Below, in pieces: positions 18,311-27,948 of a DNA stretch of 64,000 nt. The DNA is from Thermobrachium celere DSM 8682 (lineage in GTDB: Bacteria > Bacillota > Clostridia > Clostridiales > Caloramatoraceae): positions 1,633,964 to 1,697,963 of the forward strand of contig NZ_HF952018.1 of assembly GCF_000430995.1 (NCBI RefSeq), read 5' to 3'. The position numbers and the translations under genes are program-made. The first letter of the stretch is position 1. Every line of letters begins with the position of its first letter. The notes under the pieces are model-generated. The model searched no databases and was not told where the DNA came from. It saw nothing but the letters and a program-made list of their open reading frames with translations.

Positions 18311-18345
18311 GGAAAATGTCACATTTCACTTGGGTGGCACTTTTT
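18311..18345 (-). repeat. directional 3'-end repeat, copy C
   Basis: On the minus strand this copy begins at the mbxN stop codon and reads the core GTGCCACCCAAGTG followed by AAATGTGACATTT. It is almost identical to copy B. Confidence 0.88.
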
Positions 18346-18833
18346 TATCCCAGTACCTTCTTACTTTTACCAGTATTGTATCCTATATCATCCCCTAAAC
18401 TTTCATCTGGCATAATTTTAAACTTTTCCTTCACGTATTCTACTTCATCCTTTGCCGACATTGACATTACTGTCTTTATCTTATAGATGTAGTGCCTTGA
18501 CATCTTTAGGGAATTCGTTGGACAAACATCTACACAAAAGGCACAAAAGCTACATCTACCATAGTCTACAACAGGCTTTTTTATTTCTCTTCCCTGTTCA
18601 TTCTTACCTACTACCTTCATGGTTATTGCATCAAATGGACATATCCTTTTGCATGCAGCACATCCAACACATTTGTCTAAATCATTTGTATGAAGGCCTC
18701 TATAGGTTGGAGATACTCCATCTTTAGGAAATACCCTTAAAATCTGTTTTGGATACTTTATAGTAACAGGTCTTCTAAATAGATTTTTTAAAGTCGTCAG
18801 AGGAGAATAAACACTCTTATCACCTAATGCCAT
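18345..18833 (-). CDS. mbxN: MbxN-like ferredoxin-type 2[4Fe-4S] subunit (NuoI-like)
   Basis: The 162-residue subunit carries two cluster motifs, CVGCAACKRICP and CSFCAFCVDVCP, like NuoI and MbhN/MbxN. In the complex it takes electrons, presumably from ferredoxin, and passes them to the proximal cluster in MbxJ. It is the last gene of the mbx operon, 11 bp after mbxL. The C-terminal tail of about 40 residues is longer than the cluster core, as in the family. The stop codon is followed at once by a copy of the directional repeat. Confidence 0.9.
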   Translation of the reverse strand: MALGDKSVYSPLTTLKNLFRRPVTIKYPKQILRVFPKDGVSPTYRGLHTNDLDKCVGCAACKRICPFDAITMKVVGKNEQGREIKKPVVDYGRCSFCAFCVDVCPTNSLKMSRHYIYKIKTVMSMSAKDEVEYVKEKFKIMPDESLGDDIGYNTGKSKKVLG

Positions 18834-18844
18834 ATAAACACCTC

Positions 18845-19990
18845 CTATTTATCTATATCTGGTGGACATATTGCAAGTGATGCCATCCACGCTGCCACAT
18901 CATCTATTTTCATCTTTGGTAGGTGCTTTTGTGCATATAAAAGTCCTGCTGGAAGTGATGGCCCTCTAACTCCTACTCTATATGGCTTTAATCCTCCATC
19001 TGACACAACATAGTATCCAAACTCACCTTTAGATGACTCAACCTTTGCATATGCTTCACCCTTTGGAACCTTAAGCATTGAAAGGTTACCTAAATTTAAT
19101 CTTACATCACCATCTGGCATTTCCTTAAGTGCCTGTCTTATTAATTTTATTGTCTCTTCAAACTCTAATCTAACTTGAACCGCACGAGTTAAGGCATCCC
19201 CACCATCTTGAGTTATAACCTTTACATCAAGATATGGATATGCTGCATAAGGGTCGTCAACTCTAACATCATAGGCAGCACCTGATGCTCTAAGGTTTGG
19301 TCCTGTTATTCCAGTCCTTATAGCCTCCTCCTTTGATATATATCCTAATCCCTTTAACCTCTTATGAATTATTGGATTTTCAAACACAAGCTTATCATAT
19401 TCAATAAGTCTCTTTTCTAAATGATCTAATACCTCATTCAATCTTTCTACCCATCCTTCTGGAAGATCATTTCTCACTCCACCTGGAATATTGAAAATGT
19501 GATAAATTCTTGCACCTGTAAGCCATTCAAATAGATCAAGAATTAAATCCCTGTCTGCCATCATTATATACATTGGTGTATATAGACCAAGTGCTGCACC
19601 AAGTGCCCCCATTCCCATTAAAAATGAAGTTAACCTACTCATTTCAAGGGTTATTGTTCTTATAAACTTTGCCCTATCTGGAATATCTACTCCCATAATC
19701 TTTTCTATTGCTGTGCAGTAGGCAACTTCATTTGGGTCTGGATCAACAACACATATTCTTGGAACAAGTGCAATGTTTTGTACCCATAGTTTTTGTTCCA
19801 TTAGCTTCTCAAATCCTCTATGAAGGTGTCCTGCATTTGGTCTTACCTTAACTATTTCAGTTCCTATCATCTCTAAAACATATCCAAAATTTCCGTGCAT
19901 ACCAGGATGGTTTGGGCCAAAAAACAATTCATATACTGCTAAATTATCCCTTTCAGCTATTTTACTTAGTGTATATGATGGTGCGTCCAT
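18845..19990 (-). CDS. mbxL: MbxL-like large subunit (NuoD/hydrogenase-3 large subunit family) with CxxD motifs
   Basis: The 381-residue protein is the catalytic-type large subunit related to NuoD and group 4 [NiFe]-hydrogenases. In hydrogenases two CxxC motifs bind Ni-Fe. Here the N-terminal one is C80-V-V-D83 (VPRICVVDPD) and the C-terminal one is C375-P-P-D378 (LAICPPDIDK). This double CxxD pattern is, as far as I recall, the mark of Mbx/Mbs of Thermococcales, which reduces sulfane sulfur and makes no hydrogen. There is no C-terminal extension after the motif, so no maturation protease is needed. Overlap with mbxK is one base. Confidence 0.92.
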   Translation of the reverse strand: MDAPSYTLSKIAERDNLAVYELFFGPNHPGMHGNFGYVLEMIGTEIVKVRPNAGHLHRGFEKLMEQKLWVQNIALVPRICVVDPDPNEVAYCTAIEKIMGVDIPDRAKFIRTITLEMSRLTSFLMGMGALGAALGLYTPMYIMMADRDLILDLFEWLTGARIYHIFNIPGGVRNDLPEGWVERLNEVLDHLEKRLIEYDKLVFENPIIHKRLKGLGYISKEEAIRTGITGPNLRASGAAYDVRVDDPYAAYPYLDVKVITQDGGDALTRAVQVRLEFEETIKLIRQALKEMPDGDVRLNLGNLSMLKVPKGEAYAKVESSKGEFGYYVVSDGGLKPYRVGVRGPSLPAGLLYAQKHLPKMKIDDVAAWMASLAICPPDIDK

Positions 19991-20475
19991 TATCTATCAC
20001 CTCCGTCTACTTCTGCATCATAAAGCCTTATTGAAAATTCCCTTGTATCAAAATCCTTTCTAAGAGGTGGTATATCCACCCAGTTTTCTAAAAATAGAGG
20101 TGATAGATCATTATTACCCTCAAACTTAATTCCAAAGAATTCGTGTACCTCTTGTTCATAAAATTGTGCCTGTTCCCAAAGGTTAATTATTGTTGGAACT
20201 ACAGGATTATTTCTATCCACCCTAACCTTTACTAAAATGTGTACTTTATGTGTATAGGACCATATATGATATACAACCTCAAACTCACCTTCATCAATAA
20301 AATCAACTGCTGTAATAAATGATAGATGTTCAAATCCTATGCTTCTTAAAAATATTAGGTCATTTAATAGGTTTTCCTTTTTAACCGCAAGGGCTATTTG
20401 GTTATGGTATAAATCAAAAACACTATATCCTCTATCAAGTAATAGTTTCACAATATCACTCTTTTGCATCTTCAT
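19990..20475 (-). CDS. mbxK: MbxK-like subunit (NuoC family)
   Basis: The 161-residue protein is the 30-kDa (NuoC) type subunit. The family signature is visible in QAQFYEQEVHEFFGIKFEGNNDLSPLFLENWVDIPPLRKDF. It holds the large and small subunits together on the cytoplasmic side. I chose ATG 20475, placed five bases after GGAGGG, over an upstream in-frame ATG. Its start lies inside the end of mbxJ, and its stop overlaps mbxL by one base, so the J-K-L genes are tightly coupled. Confidence 0.88.
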   Translation of the reverse strand: MKMQKSDIVKLLLDRGYSVFDLYHNQIALAVKKENLLNDLIFLRSIGFEHLSFITAVDFIDEGEFEVVYHIWSYTHKVHILVKVRVDRNNPVVPTIINLWEQAQFYEQEVHEFFGIKFEGNNDLSPLFLENWVDIPPLRKDFDTREFSIRLYDAEVDGGDR

Positions 20476-21049
20476 CTTTTCCCTCCAAATCATTTTTAGG
20501 AGTTTGTCCTAATACAGGTACTGTCTTTTTAAGTACCCTATCTTGATTTGCTTTATAGTATTCATAGTTTTCTTTATACTTTTTATAAGCCCCTGCTTCT
20601 CCAGATTGAATCATCTTCATTAATGTTTGAAGTGCATCAATTACAGCCTCTGGTCTTGGCATACAGCCAGACACAGTAATATCAACTGGAATATACTCTG
20701 CTAAGTTTGTTATTGTATTATATGAATCCCAATAGATTCCTCCATTTACTGTACAAGAACCAAAGGCCAATACCCATTTTGGTTCAGGCATTTGTTCATA
20801 GGTTCTTATAATCCTCTTTAAAGTCTTTAAGGAAACATACCCTGTAACAAGGAGTACATCTGCCTGTCTTGGTGTAGCCATAGGACCTACTCCAAATCTT
20901 TCAACATCCCACCTGGATGTCATTGCTGGTGGTAACTCCACCGCTCCACAACCTGTTCAGTAGTGAAGCATCCAAATTGATCTTTTTCTAAAAAAATCTA
21001 TGATATTATCCATACAGCTTCTCTTTTTTTCCACTTTTAATTCCTGCAT
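20456..21049 (-). CDS. mbxJ: MbxJ-like small subunit (NuoB family) with an in-frame UGA, candidate selenoprotein
   Basis: Reading from ATG 21049 (AGGAGGTG upstream) through one in-frame TGA to the stop gives 197 residues. The context at residue 31 is WMLHY-U-TGCGAVELPP. In [NiFe]-hydrogenase small subunits the same motif is C-T-G-C, both cysteines being ligands of the proximal [4Fe-4S] cluster. The other ligands are in place: C34, C99 (FGSCTVNGG) and C129 (SGCMPRPEA). So the UGA falls exactly on a cluster ligand. A GGTGG-AGTTA-CCACC hairpin with GU in its loop follows at the right distance for SelB. Without read-through the protein would lose its start and two ligands, while the genes around it are intact. 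I read this as selenocysteine; a base error or a lesion remains possible. Confidence 0.82.
20928..20942 (-). promoter_or_regulatory. candidate bacterial SECIS hairpin in mbxJ
   Basis: On the minus strand GGTGG (20942-20938) pairs perfectly with CCACC (20932-20928) around the loop AGTTA. The loop G and U are 21 and 22 nt after the UGA, close to their position in the E. coli fdhF element. A lower GUUG/CAAU helix can extend the structure. The hairpin is in coding sequence, as bacterial SECIS elements are. Confidence 0.65.
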
Positions 21050-21064
21050 CTAAAACACCTCCTA

Positions 21065-21949
21065 TTAAAGAAGAATTAGAAGAAGTTGAAGCACTGCAAT
21101 TCCAATTGGAACAGTCCATAGGAACTTAACAGCCTGTTCAATTTTAAATCTTGGAAATACTGCTTCAATAAATATTGTTATTAGATATATCTCAAACTGC
21201 TTTAAAACAAATGTAAATATATTACTTGCACCGCCCATAAATAGATTTACTATGATTGCAGTTTCAACAAATATTGATACTGCATGAGTTAAAAAGGCAA
21301 GTCCAAGATATTTACCACTTAATTCAACCATAGGACCTGATGCAATTTCTGCAGGTGCAATCATTGCATCAAAGGGCTTTTCACCCATCATAGCCTGAAG
21401 TGCTATTTCTGCTGCAATAAAGGCAAGTGGGAATTTTATCATATTCCAATTTAATATTGAGCCAGCTTGAGATTGTGATATAAGCTCAAGTGATGATGTG
21501 CCATTTACTATAATAAGCCCTAATATTACTGTAAAAAATGGTACTTCATATCCAAGCATCATAGTAAGGGCACGGGATACACCTATTGTTGCATTAGGGT
21601 TTCCACTTGCCGCAACAGCCATTGCCATTCCTAAATATCCTATAGCCATAAGATACATAATCACTATTAGATTTGTACTTGTCTTTACAGCAACGTGTCC
21701 TGCAATTGGAACAAAGAGCATTGTTGCCAAAAGCCCACCAAGTGCCATAACCATACCTAAATCCATTACAAAATTGTGTGTTATAGATTTTCTTGCAAAT
21801 AATTTTCCAACATCAAGAAAGGCTTGATAAAATGGTGGACCATATCTTAGCTGAATCCTTGCAATAACCTTTCTTCCAATTCCCATAAAAAGTAGTCCTA
21901 TAAATATCGCAAATATACCAAATAAAAATACCCTTAATACCGCCATCAT
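21065..21949 (-). CDS. mbxM: MbxM-like membrane subunit (NuoH family)
   Basis: The 294-residue protein has about eight membrane helices and the NuoH landmark MIAPAEIASGPMVELSGKYLG, with the acidic quinone-site-like loop typical of NuoH/MbhM. Together with MbxJ it connects the peripheral arm to the ion-pumping arm. The start ATG overlaps the mbxH' stop (ATGA), and GGAGGG lies eight bases upstream. Only 15 bp separate it from mbxJ. Confidence 0.9.
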   Translation of the reverse strand: MMAVLRVFLFGIFAIFIGLLFMGIGRKVIARIQLRYGPPFYQAFLDVGKLFARKSITHNFVMDLGMVMALGGLLATMLFVPIAGHVAVKTSTNLIVIMYLMAIGYLGMAMAVAASGNPNATIGVSRALTMMLGYEVPFFTVILGLIIVNGTSSLELISQSQAGSILNWNMIKFPLAFIAAEIALQAMMGEKPFDAMIAPAEIASGPMVELSGKYLGLAFLTHAVSIFVETAIIVNLFMGGASNIFTFVLKQFEIYLITIFIEAVFPRFKIEQAVKFLWTVPIGIAVLQLLLILL

Positions 21950-23820
21950 ATAATCAACCCTCCTAATATCAATAGGAGAACTCCTATACTAAATAAAAGT
22001 ACTGCACCTTCTCCTCTTTTAAATAGTCCTTGAATTGTTGAACTTAAAAATTCAAAATTTCTTCCTATACTTGCAAAGAAACCATCTATTGATACAGATT
22101 CAAGTAGAGGTTCAAACATCTCTTTAAATGGCTGATAGAAGGCATATGAGTAGTTAAACCTATCCGCATCTACTCCCCACTCTTCTGGATATTCACCTGC
22201 TGTATAGTTATCATTTTGAGGAACCTTCTCTGATTTATTACCAAAGAAGTACATTAGGGCTGATATTATTACTCCTGCAACAAACATATAGAATACAATT
22301 TTAAGGTCTATAACTGAATTTTTTAAACTTCCCTCAAGCGTAGTCCAAGAAGCTACTTCAACGTTATATCCTACTGCCTTTAATGCTGATGTAAGTGGCT
22401 TCATAACTACACCTGGCACTACTCCAGTTAATAGCATTATAACCATCATAATAAACATTGGAATTGCCATAGTAGGTGGTACTTCCTTTACATCCTTATA
22501 TCTATCAGGAAGCTGCCCTAAGAATATTGAAGCAAGTGCCCTAAATAGATACATAAACGCACCTGTTGAAGCAAATATCATTGCTATAGCAAAAACAACC
22601 ATCCTCTTTGACATAAGTGCCTGTATTATCATCCACTTAGAACCAAATCCATTAAGTGGTGGTATACCTGCTGCAGCTATTATTCCAAGAAGAAATGTCA
22701 TAAATGTAAGTGGCATTCTGTAAACAAGTCCACCTAATTTATGCATTTCACTTTCTCCAGTTCTAAAAACTACTGCTGCAAGTGTTAAAAATATAGCTGC
22801 CTTTAAAATCATATGGTTTACAACATGAAATAGTGAACCTTCAAATCCAACTATAGTCATTGAAGAAAATCCAAGTAGAATATACCCCATATTTGCAACT
22901 GAAGAATATGCAAATAGTTTTTTCATATCAGTTTGAAATATGGCAAGTATAGTTCCAAGTATTGCACTTATTGCTCCAAGATAACCTATTGTATATTGAA
23001 GTACATTACCTGTGTTTAATATCATAGGAAGGTCTGCACTACCTACTACAGGAACAATAAATATAGCCATTGGATAAATTCCATATTTAATCATTACAGA
23101 AGACATAAATGTAATGTAGTCCTCTGGCCCTTCTGAATAGACCTTCTGAGGCCACATATAGAATGGGAATATTGCTGATTTTATTAAAAATGTTGTTAAA
23201 AACAATAGCAAAATCCCTATTCCAAGTTTTGTTGAAGAATTTATTATCTGTAGTAGCCCATAGGCTGATGCAAATATTTGAAAAGTACCTGTATATTGAG
23301 CTAAAACTGATATGGCAATCAGCATAAGTGCAGCACCAAATAGTGATAATGCTAAGTAGTATTTTGCTCCATCTAATGCTTTATCCTTGCCATTTGTAAT
23401 TGCAAAGAAACTTGTCCATCCCATAAGTTCCCACATCATAAAGAAGGTAACCCAATCCTGTGCAAAGAAGATACCAAGATTAGAAAATATAATAAGCATC
23501 CAAATAACAGATACATTGCTCCTTGAATTTTTATTAAAGCCTATTGAAAACAGTGAAATTAATAAAGTTATTAAGGCAGAGAAAAATGCAAAATACCATC
23601 CTATCGGATTATTGGAAACTCCTAAAGTTAGCTCTGCTCCTAATATTTTATAGGCTGTATCTACCTTGTAGCTTAAATTCCATATTCCATAAATTGAGTA
23701 GAGTTTGTATAGTACAAAACCATTGGCAGCTAAAAACAAAGTCCAAGTTATTCTTTTATATCTAATAAAAAATGCCAACACGAGAGTTGTAATTAGAGGA
23801 ACTAAAAGCAGCTCTATCAT
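21946..23820 (-). CDS. mbxH': MbxH'-like antiporter subunit (NuoL/MrpD family)
   Basis: This 624-residue protein is the second of two antiporter-like proton/sodium channels in the operon. It has about 16 membrane helices and the family core WVTFFMMWELMGWTSFFAI with the key Glu, KSAIFPFYMWPQKVYSEGPEDYITFMSSV with the key Lys, and HVVNHMILKAAIFLTLAAVV. The long C-terminus ends in a membrane segment, like the lateral extension of NuoL. A duplicated H subunit is a distinguishing feature of mbx versus mbh operons. Spacing to mbxH is 10 bp. Confidence 0.9.
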   Translation of the reverse strand: MIELLLVPLITTLVLAFFIRYKRITWTLFLAANGFVLYKLYSIYGIWNLSYKVDTAYKILGAELTLGVSNNPIGWYFAFFSALITLLISLFSIGFNKNSRSNVSVIWMLIIFSNLGIFFAQDWVTFFMMWELMGWTSFFAITNGKDKALDGAKYYLALSLFGAALMLIAISVLAQYTGTFQIFASAYGLLQIINSSTKLGIGILLLFLTTFLIKSAIFPFYMWPQKVYSEGPEDYITFMSSVMIKYGIYPMAIFIVPVVGSADLPMILNTGNVLQYTIGYLGAISAILGTILAIFQTDMKKLFAYSSVANMGYILLGFSSMTIVGFEGSLFHVVNHMILKAAIFLTLAAVVFRTGESEMHKLGGLVYRMPLTFMTFLLGIIAAAGIPPLNGFGSKWMIIQALMSKRMVVFAIAMIFASTGAFMYLFRALASIFLGQLPDRYKDVKEVPPTMAIPMFIMMVIMLLTGVVPGVVMKPLTSALKAVGYNVEVASWTTLEGSLKNSVIDLKIVFYMFVAGVIISALMYFFGNKSEKVPQNDNYTAGEYPEEWGVDADRFNYSYAFYQPFKEMFEPLLESVSIDGFFASIGRNFEFLSSTIQGLFKRGEGAVLLFSIGVLLLILGGLII

Positions 23821-23830
23821 ATTCTCAACC

Positions 23831-25279
23831 TCACTTTAATGATAAAATTATGTTTATATACTTATCTGGTGCGTTCTTTATTTCATCAATTACATTCCAT
23901 AAAATCTGTTCAATAAAGTTTGGATATATACCTATTGCTAATATAATAGCAGCTAAAACAAATGGAATTAGGGAGTAGACTCTTGAAATATTCACACTAT
24001 TCACATCCTTTTCTGCAAAGAATGTGTGTGAAATTCTTAAGTAATACACACCTTCAACAACTGATGCAATTAGGAGAATTGCTATACCTATGGTAGATAG
24101 CTTACCTAATGCAAGTGCACTTACAACTATTGAAAACTTTCCCCAAAAACCTGCAAAGAATGGCATACCCATAAGGCTAAGGGCTGCTATTGTAAATGAT
24201 ATTGCAAGAATTGGGTATTTTCTACCAAGTCCCTTCATATCAATATAGTTTTTACTTTCCACTGCATTTGAATATTGTTTAGTAACTAAAAACATCACTA
24301 ATTTTGCAAGATAGTTAGATACAACAATATATAATGCACCCTTTATAGACTCAAAGCTTCCTAAGGCTATACCAAACATAAATACTCCCATTTGAGCCAT
24401 TGAAGAAAAGGCAAGTATTTTAACCAAATTCTTTTCTTTAAGTGCTCCAACTTCGCCTATTAGCACTGTAAATACTGAAAGGATGATTAATACCTTTGAA
24501 ATATTTGTACTATACATATTTGGAAAGACAATTAACAGTATTCTTATTGCACCATAAATTCCAGCAGTACCAAGCATTCCGTGTGTAAACATATTTACCG
24601 AAGTAATTGAACCTTCATAGGACTTAACAACCCAAAGATTAAATGGGAATATTTTAAGTTCTACAAGCATACTTGATAAGAACAAAATTAAAATTAGATT
24701 ATAGGATGCTTGGTTTAATTTAGAAAGCTTTAATGCAATATCTGCAAAGTTTAAAGTCCCTAAAGTTTTATAAATAAGCCCAATAGAAGCAAGGCTAAAC
24801 AAGGAAGCTGTTGATGATAAAATTAAAAACTTAAGTGCTGCACCTGTTGATAGCCTGTCTCTTTTATAGGCAACAAGTCCTGCAATAGCAAAGGTTGAAA
24901 GCTCTGTGAATAGATAAAAGTTAAACATATCGCCAGTTAAAACCATACCATTTGTAGCAGCTAAAAGAACAAAATAGAAGGAATAAAATTGATATTCCTT
25001 TATGTTATTAACCACTGTTATAGAAATTAAGGCTGCTATGTTTACAAGAAGTAAAAAGTAAATTGTAATATCAGTTACAACAAAGTTTATACCAAAGGGT
25101 GCCCTCCATCCTCCTATTGCAACATTAAATGGAATGTTTCCACTCATCAAAACTGTTATTGAAAATATTAAATTAAATAATGTAACTATATACATTGCAA
25201 GTTTATTTAATTTTTCTAAGAAAAGGGATAAAAATGCTGCAATTAGAGGGATTACTACTAAAAACACTATACTATTCAT
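23831..25279 (-). CDS. mbxH: MbxH-like antiporter subunit (MrpD/NuoM-N family)
   Basis: The 482-residue protein has about 14 helices. Key residues seen are the Glu in DMFNFYLFTELSTFAIAGLVAY, the Lys in LVELKIFPFNLWVVKSYEGS and the His-containing TSVNMFTHGMLGTAGIYGAI. It is closest in type to MrpD/MbhH. It follows mbxG with a four-base overlap. It should form part of the ion-translocating membrane arm. Confidence 0.9.
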   Translation of the reverse strand: MNSIVFLVVIPLIAAFLSLFLEKLNKLAMYIVTLFNLIFSITVLMSGNIPFNVAIGGWRAPFGINFVVTDITIYFLLLVNIAALISITVVNNIKEYQFYSFYFVLLAATNGMVLTGDMFNFYLFTELSTFAIAGLVAYKRDRLSTGAALKFLILSSTASLFSLASIGLIYKTLGTLNFADIALKLSKLNQASYNLILILFLSSMLVELKIFPFNLWVVKSYEGSITSVNMFTHGMLGTAGIYGAIRILLIVFPNMYSTNISKVLIILSVFTVLIGEVGALKEKNLVKILAFSSMAQMGVFMFGIALGSFESIKGALYIVVSNYLAKLVMFLVTKQYSNAVESKNYIDMKGLGRKYPILAISFTIAALSLMGMPFFAGFWGKFSIVVSALALGKLSTIGIAILLIASVVEGVYYLRISHTFFAEKDVNSVNISRVYSLIPFVLAAIILAIGIYPNFIEQILWNVIDEIKNAPDKYINIILSLK

Positions 25280-25635
25280 ACGTTTACCCCCTCTTCATCT
25301 GTTGCTCTAATTGAAATTGAGTTGTGGGTATTTTTATATCTCATTGCAAGTGCAAGTGCAAAGGCTGTTGTTCCAAGACCTATTACTATTGAAGTTAGAA
25401 CAAGTGCCTGTGGAACAGGGTCGACCATTTTATCTAAATTAGCGATACTTAAATCTGATTGAAGTATTGGAGTTAAACCACCTTCAATATATCCAAAGGC
25501 TACCAAGAGCATATTGATTCCTGTTTCTATAATGTTTAGTGCTATTAGAATTTTAACTATGTTTTTTCTTGTCAAAACTCCATATAGTCCAACAAACACA
25601 AGGGAAAGTGAAGATAATATAAAAACTTTTGTCAT
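25276..25635 (-). CDS. mbxG: MbxG-like subunit (MrpC/NuoK family)
   Basis: The 119-residue protein has three membrane helices and the NuoK/MrpC pattern GVLTRKNIVKILIALNIIETGINMLLVAFGY with a buried Glu, then DPVPQALVLTSIVIGLGTTAFALALAMR. I prefer ATG 25635 because GAGGAG is eight bases upstream; a GTG nine bases earlier is possible. It sits between mbxF and mbxH. Confidence 0.88.
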   Translation of the reverse strand: MTKVFILSSLSLVFVGLYGVLTRKNIVKILIALNIIETGINMLLVAFGYIEGGLTPILQSDLSIANLDKMVDPVPQALVLTSIVIGLGTTAFALALAMRYKNTHNSISIRATDEEGVNV

Positions 25636-25637
25636 AA

Positions 25638-26381
25638 TCAACACTCCTCATAAAATTCAAAATAAATATTTGATAGCTCTGCAGCCACCTTAAAGGCTAT
25701 AAGACCATAAAACACAGGTATCAGACCACCTGAGAATAAATCACCTATTCTATCTCCTGTTATAAAGTTTTGGAAGAATACACCTTTAATAAAGAAGGAA
25801 GCTATTCCTATAGCAAATATTGATATTCCTGCAACTGCCTCTACTACCTTTAAAGTCTTATGGTTTACTGTTTTTCTACCTGCTAAAACTCCTATTAATA
25901 CTGCAGTTGATATAATAGCACCTGCTGGGAATCCTCCCCCTGGTGATAGATGTCCATTAATAAACATATATCCTCCAATCATAAGCATTAAGATCATAAG
26001 AATTGGTGCCCATCTATAGAGGATTACAGAAGGCATTTTAACCCTTCTCTTATCCTTTGGTATAACAAAACCAAATCCTAATATAGTTACAAAGAGAACT
26101 ATAACCTCTAATGTTGTATCAAATAATCTGTAGTCTACAACAACTGATGTAACTATGTTGGCAGATGTATCTTCTGCTGTTTGTGAAAACTTATAGGTGC
26201 TGTTTTCATTTAATACATTCTTATTTAAATATTTATCTGCCACCCTCATCTTTGGAGTAATGCTGTCTGTTATCTTAATTCCACTTCCAGTATCAATTGA
26301 AACCTTATAGATATAAAAGGCCATAAATGAAAGAATTAACAGAGCAACTATATTGATAAACAAAGACTTTTCATCTTTCAT
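25638..26381 (-). CDS. mbxF: MbxF-like subunit (MrpA C-terminal region plus MrpB domain)
   Basis: The 247-residue protein appears to merge an MbhE-like N-terminal part (one helix, a soluble stretch, then DTTLEVIVLFVTILGFGFVIP) with an MrpB/MbhF domain (RWAPILMILMLMIGGYMFINGHLSPGGGFPAGAIISTAVLIG). GHxSPGGGFPxG is the MrpB signature. This agrees with the mbx gene set, which lacks a separate E gene. It overlaps mbxD by 11 bp. Confidence 0.87.
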   Translation of the reverse strand: MKDEKSLFINIVALLILSFMAFYIYKVSIDTGSGIKITDSITPKMRVADKYLNKNVLNENSTYKFSQTAEDTSANIVTSVVVDYRLFDTTLEVIVLFVTILGFGFVIPKDKRRVKMPSVILYRWAPILMILMLMIGGYMFINGHLSPGGGFPAGAIISTAVLIGVLAGRKTVNHKTLKVVEAVAGISIFAIGIASFFIKGVFFQNFITGDRIGDLFSGGLIPVFYGLIAFKVAAELSNIYFEFYEEC

Positions 26382-26616
26382 CTTTTCTTTCCTCCATTTT
26401 CTTATATGTGAATATAAATAATGCTGTTGTTATACCTGAACCTATTGCTGCTTCAGTTATAGCAACATCGGGTGCCTGCATTAATAAAAACATTACAGAA
26501 GACATAAGTGAAACTATTCCAAAAATAACAATGGCTTTAAAAACATCCTCTGTTAAAACTGTCCAAATCGCTCCTAAAAACATTACCACAGCAATAAAAA
26601 TTGCAAGATTAATCAT
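26371..26616 (-). CDS. mbxD: MbxD-like subunit (DUF4040, MrpA-derived)
   Basis: The 81-residue protein has two to three helices and the DUF4040 motif VFKAIVIFGIVSLMSSVMFLLMQAPDVAITEAAIGSGITTALFI. In Mrp antiporters this piece is part of MrpA; in Mbh/Mbx it is a separate subunit with conserved Asp and Glu lining the ion path. It overlaps both neighbours by a few bases. Confidence 0.87.
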   Translation of the reverse strand: MINLAIFIAVVMFLGAIWTVLTEDVFKAIVIFGIVSLMSSVMFLLMQAPDVAITEAAIGSGITTALFIFTYKKMEERKDER

Positions 26617-26932
26617 TTACTTCTCCCTCCTTTAAAAGAGGATTTGAATCTAATATAAAGTTTGCTTTATTTCTCCTAAGTGCAGCCTTACATATTGCGT
26701 GGGATGCAATTGGAGATGAAAATAGGAAAAATAGTGCCATTAGAATAAGCTTTGGTGAAGCTTGTGGATTTAATAGGGAAAACCCTACAAGCAGTGCCAA
26801 TATTCCAAGTGTTGATGCCTTTGTTCCAGCTTGGGACTGATTAAGTACATCTGGCATTCTATATATACCAAGGCCCGCAAGAAACGAAAAGGTCGCCCCA
26901 ACTAATATAAAAAACCAACCAACATATTGCAT
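26609..26932 (-). CDS. mbxC: MbxC-like subunit (MrpG family)
   Basis: The 107-residue protein has three helices and the MrpG pattern VGATFSFLAGLGIYRMPDVLNQSQAGTKASTLGILALLVG. MrpG-type subunits help form the sodium/proton module. It sits one base after mbxB and overlaps mbxD by eight bases. Confidence 0.88.
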   Translation of the reverse strand: MQYVGWFFILVGATFSFLAGLGIYRMPDVLNQSQAGTKASTLGILALLVGFSLLNPQASPKLILMALFFLFSSPIASHAICKAALRRNKANFILDSNPLLKEGEVND

Positions 26933-26933
26933 A

Positions 26934-27182
26934 TTAAATTCCTCCCTCTAAATAACGTGCAACAGCAACAACGCCAACAAAGGATAAAAGCCCATACACA
27001 AGAGCAACATCTATAAGGAGCGTATTGTCTGTTAAAAATGCAAATACAATAATTAAGCTTGATGTTATTGTTGTTAAAACATCTATTGCAACAACTCTGC
27101 TTTCTATTGAATCTCCCTTGACCAATCTAATAATGCTAAGAAGCATTCCCAAAACAATAAGTGCTATTGTTACATAAAACAT
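26934..27182 (-). CDS. mbxB: MbxB-like subunit (MrpF family)
   Basis: The 82-residue protein has three helices and the MrpF signature RLVKGDSIESRVVAIDVLTTITSSLIIVFAF with the conserved R...D. It is a small membrane part of the antiporter module. It overlaps mbxA by one base. Confidence 0.88.
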   Translation of the reverse strand: MFYVTIALIVLGMLLSIIRLVKGDSIESRVVAIDVLTTITSSLIIVFAFLTDNTLLIDVALVYGLLSFVGVVAVARYLEGGI

Positions 27183-27655
27183 TATTCAAATGCCTCCTTC
27201 AGTATTTTTTCAAAGGGTCCCTTTAAGCCCTCTACATCATCAACCTTTTCACCTTCAACAACGTGTATATAAATAGTATCTTCATCTAAATCAACTGAAA
27301 TTGTCCCTGGAGTTAATGTTATTGAATTTGCAAGAAGAGCCTTTGCTATGTTGGATTTTAGCTCTGTTTTAACTTCATATATCTTTGGTGAAATAGGAAG
27401 CGAAGGTGTTATAACAATTCTTGCCATATTCAAATTAGCCTTAACTAATTCAATTAAAAATACAATAAAATATTTTATTAAATGGTAGAGAGATTTTATT
27501 TTAAAACTTTTACTCTTTTGGTTATAATATTGAGTTAAAACTGATATGAATAAGGATAGAATTAAACCAAATATGATTTCTTGATTTGTAAGTGGGTAGC
27601 TTAAGGAAAACCACACTAAAAAGAGAGAAAAGAAAGTAAAAATAAAATTATTCAA
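27182..27655 (-). CDS. mbxA: MbxA-like subunit (MrpE family)
   Basis: The 157-residue protein has two or three N-terminal helices and an MrpE-type soluble C-terminal domain: KSNIAKALLANSITLTPGTISVDLDEDTIYIHVVE. The family is the first subunit of Mrp-like modules. I place the start at TTG 27655, six bases after GGAGGTG; a TTG 15 bases earlier would begin inside that ribosome site. It follows the arsR gene closely, so the two are very likely cotranscribed. Confidence 0.88.
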   Translation of the reverse strand: MNNFIFTFFSLFLVWFSLSYPLTNQEIIFGLILSLFISVLTQYYNQKSKSFKIKSLYHLIKYFIVFLIELVKANLNMARIVITPSLPISPKIYEVKTELKSNIAKALLANSITLTPGTISVDLDEDTIYIHVVEGEKVDDVEGLKGPFEKILKEAFE

Positions 27656-27678
27656 TAGGCTCACCTCCAAAAGTTTAG

Positions 27679-27948
27679 TTACTCTGCCATCAGTGAAAGA
27701 ATCATATTCTTTACTCCATCATCTACAATACTGTATATAACCTCAAGTCCACTTCTTTCTCCTTCAATTAAACCTGCATTTTTTAAAATACCTAGATGCT
27801 TTGATACAGTTGACTGAGGTATGTTTAAACATTCTTGAATTTTAGTTACATTGGATTGTCCATTTAATAGGCATAGTAATATGGAAACTCTTATTGGATT
27901 TGAAAGAACTTTAAACTTATCTGCTAATTTTTGAATCTTCTTATTCAC
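27679..27948 (-). CDS. ArsR-family transcriptional regulator heading the mbx operon
   Basis: The 89-residue protein is a minimal winged-helix ArsR regulator: DKFKVLSNPIRVSILLCLLNGQSNVTKIQECLNIPQSTVSKHLGILKNAGLIEGERSGLEVIYSIVDD. It lacks the ELCVCDL metal site of classical ArsR. It has only two cysteines, one in LLCLL and one in QECLN, so a thiol, persulfide or redox switch is conceivable. The start is GTG 27948. It is the first gene of the mbx operon, and an inverted repeat fits between the -35 and -10 boxes of its promoter, so autorepression is likely. In Thermococcales the mbx operon is also under an ArsR-family regulator, SurR. Confidence 0.88.
   Translation of the reverse strand: MNKKIQKLADKFKVLSNPIRVSILLCLLNGQSNVTKIQECLNIPQSTVSKHLGILKNAGLIEGERSGLEVIYSIVDDGVKNMILSLMAE

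Follow-up and report, generated by a model that had tools for sequence, protein, structure and literature searches.

The mbxJ gene of Thermobrachium celere carries a single UGA inside its own reading frame, and this locus raises two questions: whether the codon specifies selenocysteine (Sec) and, if so, what a selenium-containing residue would do at that position. The first-pass annotation of the 64,000-nucleotide stretch of DNA analysed here (the window) had placed this one UGA in mbxJ, had read it as a Sec candidate and had assigned the residue to the proximal [4Fe-4S] cluster as its fourth ligand. We find the UGA at codon 31 within a strongly conserved frame, and the evidence set out below backs its reading as Sec, so that mbxJ is almost certainly a real and apparently undescribed selenoprotein gene. 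The assignment as a cluster ligand finds no support in the aligned residue of a solved structure, MbsJ C25, which does not ligate the cluster, and we suggest a different role for residue 31.

The mbx cluster and its kinship to MBS

The features of the locus are collected in Table 1. The mbxJ frame starts with the ATG at 21049-21047 and has its own terminal stop, also a UGA, at 20458-20456; codon 31 lies in the motif HY-U-TGCGAVELPP, and read-through gives a product of 197 residues. The start upstream of the UGA was noted early on to have a strong ribosome-binding site and the other three ligand cysteines to be present, and both statements hold (Table 1).

Table 1. Coordinates of the mbx genes and of the features in and around mbxJ (positions in the window)
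Feature	Position	Strand	Remarks
mbxN	18345..18833	minus	NuoI-like ferredoxin-type subunit
mbxL	18845..19990	minus	large subunit; 6u8y_L E 7.9e-106; keeps equivalents of MbsL C85 and C385
mbxK	19990..20493	minus	NuoC-like; start as listed, later ATG possible (scanned from 20481)
mbxJ	20456..21049	minus	197 codons, one in-frame UGA; predicted Sec-containing small subunit of MBS-like complex
Cys129 codon of mbxJ	20663..20665	minus	equivalent to MbsJ C123, cluster ligand in MbsJ
Cys99 codon of mbxJ	20753..20755	minus	equivalent to MbsJ C93, cluster ligand in MbsJ
Extended SECIS element	20915..20953	minus	broken lower stem (GG.UGU / ACA.CC); pairing bases kept in five UGA genes
Apical hairpin of bacterial-type SECIS	20928..20942	minus	GGUGG-AGUUA-CCACC; 5-bp stem; 19 nt between UGA and loop
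Cys34 codon of mbxJ	20948..20950	minus	equivalent to MbsJ C28, cluster ligand in MbsJ
UGA codon 31 of mbxJ	20957..20959	minus	predicted to be read as selenocysteine; aligned to MbsJ C25
Ribosome-binding site of mbxJ	21057..21063	minus	AGGAGGT; precedes ATG upstream of UGA
mbxM	21065..21949	minus	NuoH-like membrane anchor
mbxH'	21946-23820	minus	antiporter-like subunit
mbxH	23831-25279	minus	antiporter-like subunit
mbxG, E, D, C, B, A	25276..27670	minus	Mrp-antiporter-like and MbhD-like small membrane subunits

The best match of MbxJ in the PDB is MbsJ of MBS, the sulfane sulfur reductase complex of Pyrococcus furiosus (6u8y chain J, E 1.2e-69). The alignment is gapless over 159 residues (query 15-173 to 9-167), places codon 31 on C25 and Cys34, Cys99 and Cys129 on C28, C93 and C123, and gives MbxJ the MbsJ-type loop, which is three residues shorter than in MBH. 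MbxL shows two of the four NiFe cysteines, the same two as MbsL. All thirteen mbx genes in the window are also present in the four other genomes with a UGA in mbxJ and, with broken frames, in Caloramator sp. mosi_1. The gapless match, the MbxL cysteines and the thirteen genes support the earlier assignment to an Mbx/MBS-type complex, as judged from sequence, and this complex is probably ferredoxin-driven and ion-pumping. The letters given to mbxG, E, D, C, B and A follow the MBS gene order. Directly upstream of mbxA lies a gene for an ArsR-type regulator (27679-27948, minus strand, PF01022), which has the same place in all six relatives' loci that reach so far; this protein is possibly a counterpart of SurR, which controls MBS in archaea.

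Evidence for selenocysteine at codon 31

The exchange of UGA and Cys codons among relatives, suggested as a check by the first-pass annotation, is found at residue 31. A search of 225 genomes of the order included 17 of the T. celere family, Caloramatoraceae; six of these 17 have the gene and five of the six copies carry the UGA, in each case as codon 31. The five genomes span two genera and include Caloramator proteoclasticus DSM 10124. The whole search returned seven genomes with the MbxJ group at E 1e-50 or better, five of them with one internal TGA, which had already turned up in a smaller set of 60 relatives; the two lacking it, Caloramator sp. mosi_1 and Clostridium tepidiprofundi, both have TGT, and the mosi_1 gene has a frameshift before this codon. 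The gene is present in six further genomes of a class sample (391 genomes; one genome carries two copies), in three further genomes of a phylum sample (398 genomes) and in three of 20 genomes of the family of Thermoanaerobacter wiegelii, this species included, and all of these have Cys. When L042 and L044-L049, loci from named organisms, are added to the genome samples (L040, L041 and L043 repeat the C. proteoclasticus, mosi_1 and C. tepidiprofundi genomes of these samples and are counted once), 26 copies, all different in DNA, have five TGA, 17 TGT and four TGC at codon 31, that is, five TGA versus 21 Cys. As far as sampled, the UGA form is thus confined to the family of T. celere. In 70 more distant loci, which come from the best 80 of 584 matches and stand outside the 26-copy count, the same position holds Gly (64), Ala (3), Pro (2) or Cys (1) and no stop; the sole Cys (L076) sits within a hydrogenase-type CNGC motif. 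Because the position is Cys or UGA in 26/26 copies of the group but mostly Gly in the distant loci, the residue marks the MBS-type group. A NuoB-like locus with one TGA (L019) was excluded from the counts, having ACC at the motif and a TGA that closes its reading frame and that we take to be the gene's end. The Cys-type MbxJ is present twice in one genome (L158, L164); the two copies differ and share 71% and 60% identity with the T. celere query.

The five UGA genes are under selection beyond the UGA. In the ten pairwise comparisons over codons 32-180, third-position differences number 36-64 and those at first and second positions together 3-14; since third-position changes far outnumber the others, the codons beyond the UGA are translated and constrained. 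A pseudogene can be rejected on account of this purifying selection and of the UGA common to five genomes, and decay of the gene in relatives, named at the outset as a finding that would speak against Sec, was looked for and not obtained. A sequencing error can be rejected because the identical UGA occurs in five assemblies, and a reassignment of UGA in the genetic code because mbxJ itself still ends on UGA.

The machinery for Sec insertion, whose absence would likewise have counted against the reading, is present, with selD, selA, selB and the tRNA-Sec gene forming one cluster in the T. celere genome. With 71.4 bits the tRNA-Sec lies well above its cut-off of 47, and ARAGORN also finds it (anticodon tca); SelA matches PF03841 with 552 bits. 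Two further genes of this genome, selD and grdB, each have an in-frame UGA; as a separate observation, there are two matches to grdB (L156, L157), the second of which is partial and contains an internal TAA. Of 12 genomes examined, 11 from the family plus C. tepidiprofundi, all 12 have selD above the cut-off and 11 have selB; the exception is mosi_1, where selB lies in pieces. In ten further genomes with a Cys MbxJ, selB is above the cut-off in five, and no match to SelB reaches it in T. wiegelii, the one genome of its family examined for this gene.

The five-base-pair hairpin that had been described downstream of the UGA is found as stated, with G and U of its loop 21 and 22 nt after the UGA. 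All five UGA genes have a SECIS-type hairpin after the UGA; GCGGTGGAGTTRCCACC is invariant in them and folds as GGUGG-AGUUR-CCACC, and 19 nt separate the UGA from the loop. The 48-nt folds range from -12.0 to -16.3 kcal/mol, and the apical hairpin alone gives -6.3 in four of the five genes. According to published rules, bacterial SECIS elements have a loop of 3-9 nt, a stem of 4-16 bp, a G in the first two loop positions, a distance of 16-37 nt from the UGA and an MFE of at most -7.5 (PMC13188914). The predicted element of mbxJ, with a lower stem that reaches 20915, conforms to these rules; the rules are lax, since the Cys gene L048, with SelB below the cut-off, conforms to them as well. None of 11 other Cys genes compared has a hairpin as stable under the rule, the nearest being that of L048 (-5.2, with different spacing); as the whole fold of L048 is equally deep (-16.3), fold energy alone fails to separate UGA and Cys genes. 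The Cys gene of mosi_1 retains the SECIS-like hairpin.

How unusual this hairpin is depends on the measure. On both strands of the window there are 1994 TGA triplets, and the bare rule, which sets no energy limit, is weak because 1064 of them satisfy it; 24 are followed by a hairpin no less stable than that of mbxJ under the same rule, and among the 16 TGAs preceded by at least 25 and followed by at least 60 open codons the mbxJ UGA alone has so stable a hairpin. When the gene was recoded synonymously 5000 times with local codon use, 0.7% of the recodings matched its own hairpin, 5.8% the whole fold energy and 48.5% the bare rule. Synonymous codons are identical at 9/14 sites in codons 32-48 versus 36/136 elsewhere (p 0.006), with the boundaries chosen by us at a place where the best sliding windows also fall; in the hairpin core, codons 32-42, only 5/10 are identical. 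The hairpin of the selD gene of T. celere has a GUU loop, as it has in four of six relatives compared, and that of grdB a GGU loop.

In total, the machinery, the conserved UGA, the Cys homologues, the hairpin and the purifying selection past the UGA strongly support selenocysteine as the predicted residue 31, and we infer that Sec is actually inserted at this codon: SelB and tRNA-Sec would decode the UGA, aided by the downstream hairpin, and read-through would give the 197-residue small subunit of an MBS-type complex. That the UGA is instead a plain stop or a mutation, leaving a dead or truncated mbxJ that is restarted at a GTG past it, is very improbable; a GTG frame does exist (20941-20456), but the restarted protein would lose Cys34, whose counterpart in MBS is a ligand, the five genomes that share the UGA have the complete set of thirteen mbx genes, and the downstream frame is under strong selection. 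Insertion of a standard amino acid such as Cys or Trp at the UGA, in place of Sec, is equally improbable, given that UGA terminates mbxJ and that both Sec machinery and hairpin are present. Automatic annotation may start MbxJ past the UGA or drop it, and in so doing lose one ligand as well as Sec.

History and role of residue 31

The tree of MbxJ alone leaves the group unresolved, and one Sec clade is not rejected by it (p-AU 0.27). The tree of eleven concatenated mbx proteins unites mosi_1, with its Cys, and the three congeneric Sec genomes in a single clade (100/100; 81/84 and 64/52 for the order within it), and because a clade of the five Sec rows without mosi_1 is rejected (p-AU 1e-5), a return from Sec to Cys in mosi_1 is the simplest reading. 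A single gain of Sec with a later return to Cys in mosi_1, where the hairpin is still visible, fits best; two independent gains are also conceivable. The Cys form of mosi_1 is to be taken with caution, as selB, selD and mbxJ all lie in broken frames in this assembly, which looks as if it carries indel errors. The placement of T. wiegelii in the eleven-protein tree is unsure (65/43; p-AU 0.08); its mbx cluster stands next to or inside the family of T. celere, and the Cys MbxJ proteins of the T. wiegelii family (L042, L166, L167) are close to those of the T. celere family. The cluster of the T. wiegelii family was likely transferred horizontally as a whole, into a lineage that, judged by T. wiegelii, is without SelB.

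The solved structure of MBS indicates what residue 31 may do. The proximal cluster is held there by the three cysteines C28, C93 and C123 and has one iron without a cysteine ligand, and in the cryo-EM structure C25 is too far from the cluster to ligate it (PMC7684303). As the first-pass annotation correctly stated, sulfane sulfur has been proposed to be reduced at this cluster, in a reaction scheme that requires no amino acid residue (PMC7684303). Removal of the cysteine-free iron with ferricyanide costs about 98% of MBS activity, and the C25A variant of P. furiosus has an activity comparable to that of the wild type with dimethyltrisulfide (DMTS) as substrate (PMC7684303). C25 of MbsJ is therefore dispensable for DMTS, a model substrate, and since C25 cannot coordinate the cluster, the aligned Sec of MbxJ would, by homology, be no cluster ligand. 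Sec has been described as a substitute for redox-active cysteines (PMC1794560).

We favor, with moderate confidence, a model in which Sec is a redox-active second-sphere residue of the catalytic chamber that would face an open iron and help to split an S-S bond, or one like it, in the acceptor. Sec would occupy the place of MbsJ C25 in the chamber near the proximal [4Fe-4S] cluster, the selenolate would attack half of a polysulfide or hold it in the form of a selenosulfide, and the open fourth iron would bind the other half, with the cluster providing the reduction. More tentatively, and as a proposal that may or may not hold, selenolate and open iron would split the S-S bond jointly, in which case the residue-free scheme for the archaeal MBS is not general. 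The geometry, the acceptor and the chemistry of the MbxJ Sec are those that we infer. Counted against a catalytic Sec is mosi_1, which belongs to the same genus as three Sec genomes and has TGT, so that Sec at codon 31 is not indispensable.

A ligand role, as in the first-pass annotation, would have Sec bind the proximal cluster as its fourth ligand, permanently or for part of the cycle as a swinging selenolate. In [NiFe] small subunits, whose motif is similar, both cysteines of the motif bind the proximal cluster, and an Se-Fe bond is longer than an S-Fe bond. Complex I has, moreover, been proposed to lose and regain cysteine ligands (PMC7684303). We nevertheless regard a ligand as rather unlikely: MbxJ shares the shortened loop of MbsJ in the gapless alignment, C25 is out of reach of the iron, and activity is lost on removal of the iron and not on replacement of C25. 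Alternatively, mbxJ may be a genuine selenoprotein gene whose Sec is non-catalytic and protects the chamber against oxidation, or is a nearly neutral replacement for a conserved Cys. The active C25A variant and the probable reversion of mosi_1 from Sec to Cys are in line with such a reading; set against it are the retention of UGA and element in five genomes of two genera and the presence of Cys or Sec in 26/26 copies, and we give it a minor chance. The catalytic second-sphere Sec remains our preferred reading.

Novelty and relation to known systems

What is new here is that an ancient respiratory complex of the MBS type, akin to a sulfur reductase and present in heat-loving clostridia, has a J subunit predicted to be a selenoprotein, apparently undescribed so far. 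A 2026 review of prokaryotic selenoproteins puts the coverage of its Table 1 at 119 families and subfamilies; neither PF01058 nor a NuoB or MbxJ/MbsJ family appears in this table, and the NADH:ubiquinone oxidoreductase subunit E that it does contain is PF02508 (PMC13188914). No report of a selenoprotein MbxJ was found among the listed titles and abstract openings of the open-access selenocysteine literature, and the consulted portions of deep-Sep and Peng 2016 do not name one. With MbxJ, the complex I superfamily would gain a selenoprotein family that lies apart from any nickel site. The role of the conserved C25 of MBS is reopened as well: this residue is seemingly dispensable in P. furiosus with a model substrate and yet has a recoding system spent on it here. 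As natural Sec and Cys forms occur in one genus, the role of the residue is directly testable.

One of the closest known systems is the P. furiosus MBS, which like Mbx has thirteen genes and two antiporter-like large subunits and keeps C85 and C385; it differs in being archaeal with Cys at C25, whereas Mbx has a bacterial host and UGA at this position. Like [NiFeSe] hydrogenases, Mbx would have selenium within a hydrogenase-like complex; in those enzymes Sec is proposed to bind nickel (PMC13188914), whereas in Mbx it would lie in the small subunit. NuoB/Nqo6 of complex I belongs to the same superfamily (PF01058) and, unlike MbxJ, has adjacent cysteines at the cluster (PMC7684303). Three aligned NuoB-like proteins have Gly or Pro at the position of residue 31, again unlike MbxJ.

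For the chemistry, a parallel is ferredoxin:thioredoxin reductase. We know of no sequence kinship between this enzyme and MbxJ, and unlike the Mbx complex it is small and soluble; next to its [4Fe-4S] cluster it has a redox-active thiol or selenol, and the Sec of MbxJ would work somewhat like its thiols. Ferredoxin:thioredoxin reductase served as a partial model for the MBS reaction scheme (PMC7684303), and a Sec form of it (NF041072) is listed in Table 1 of the selenoprotein review (PMC13188914).
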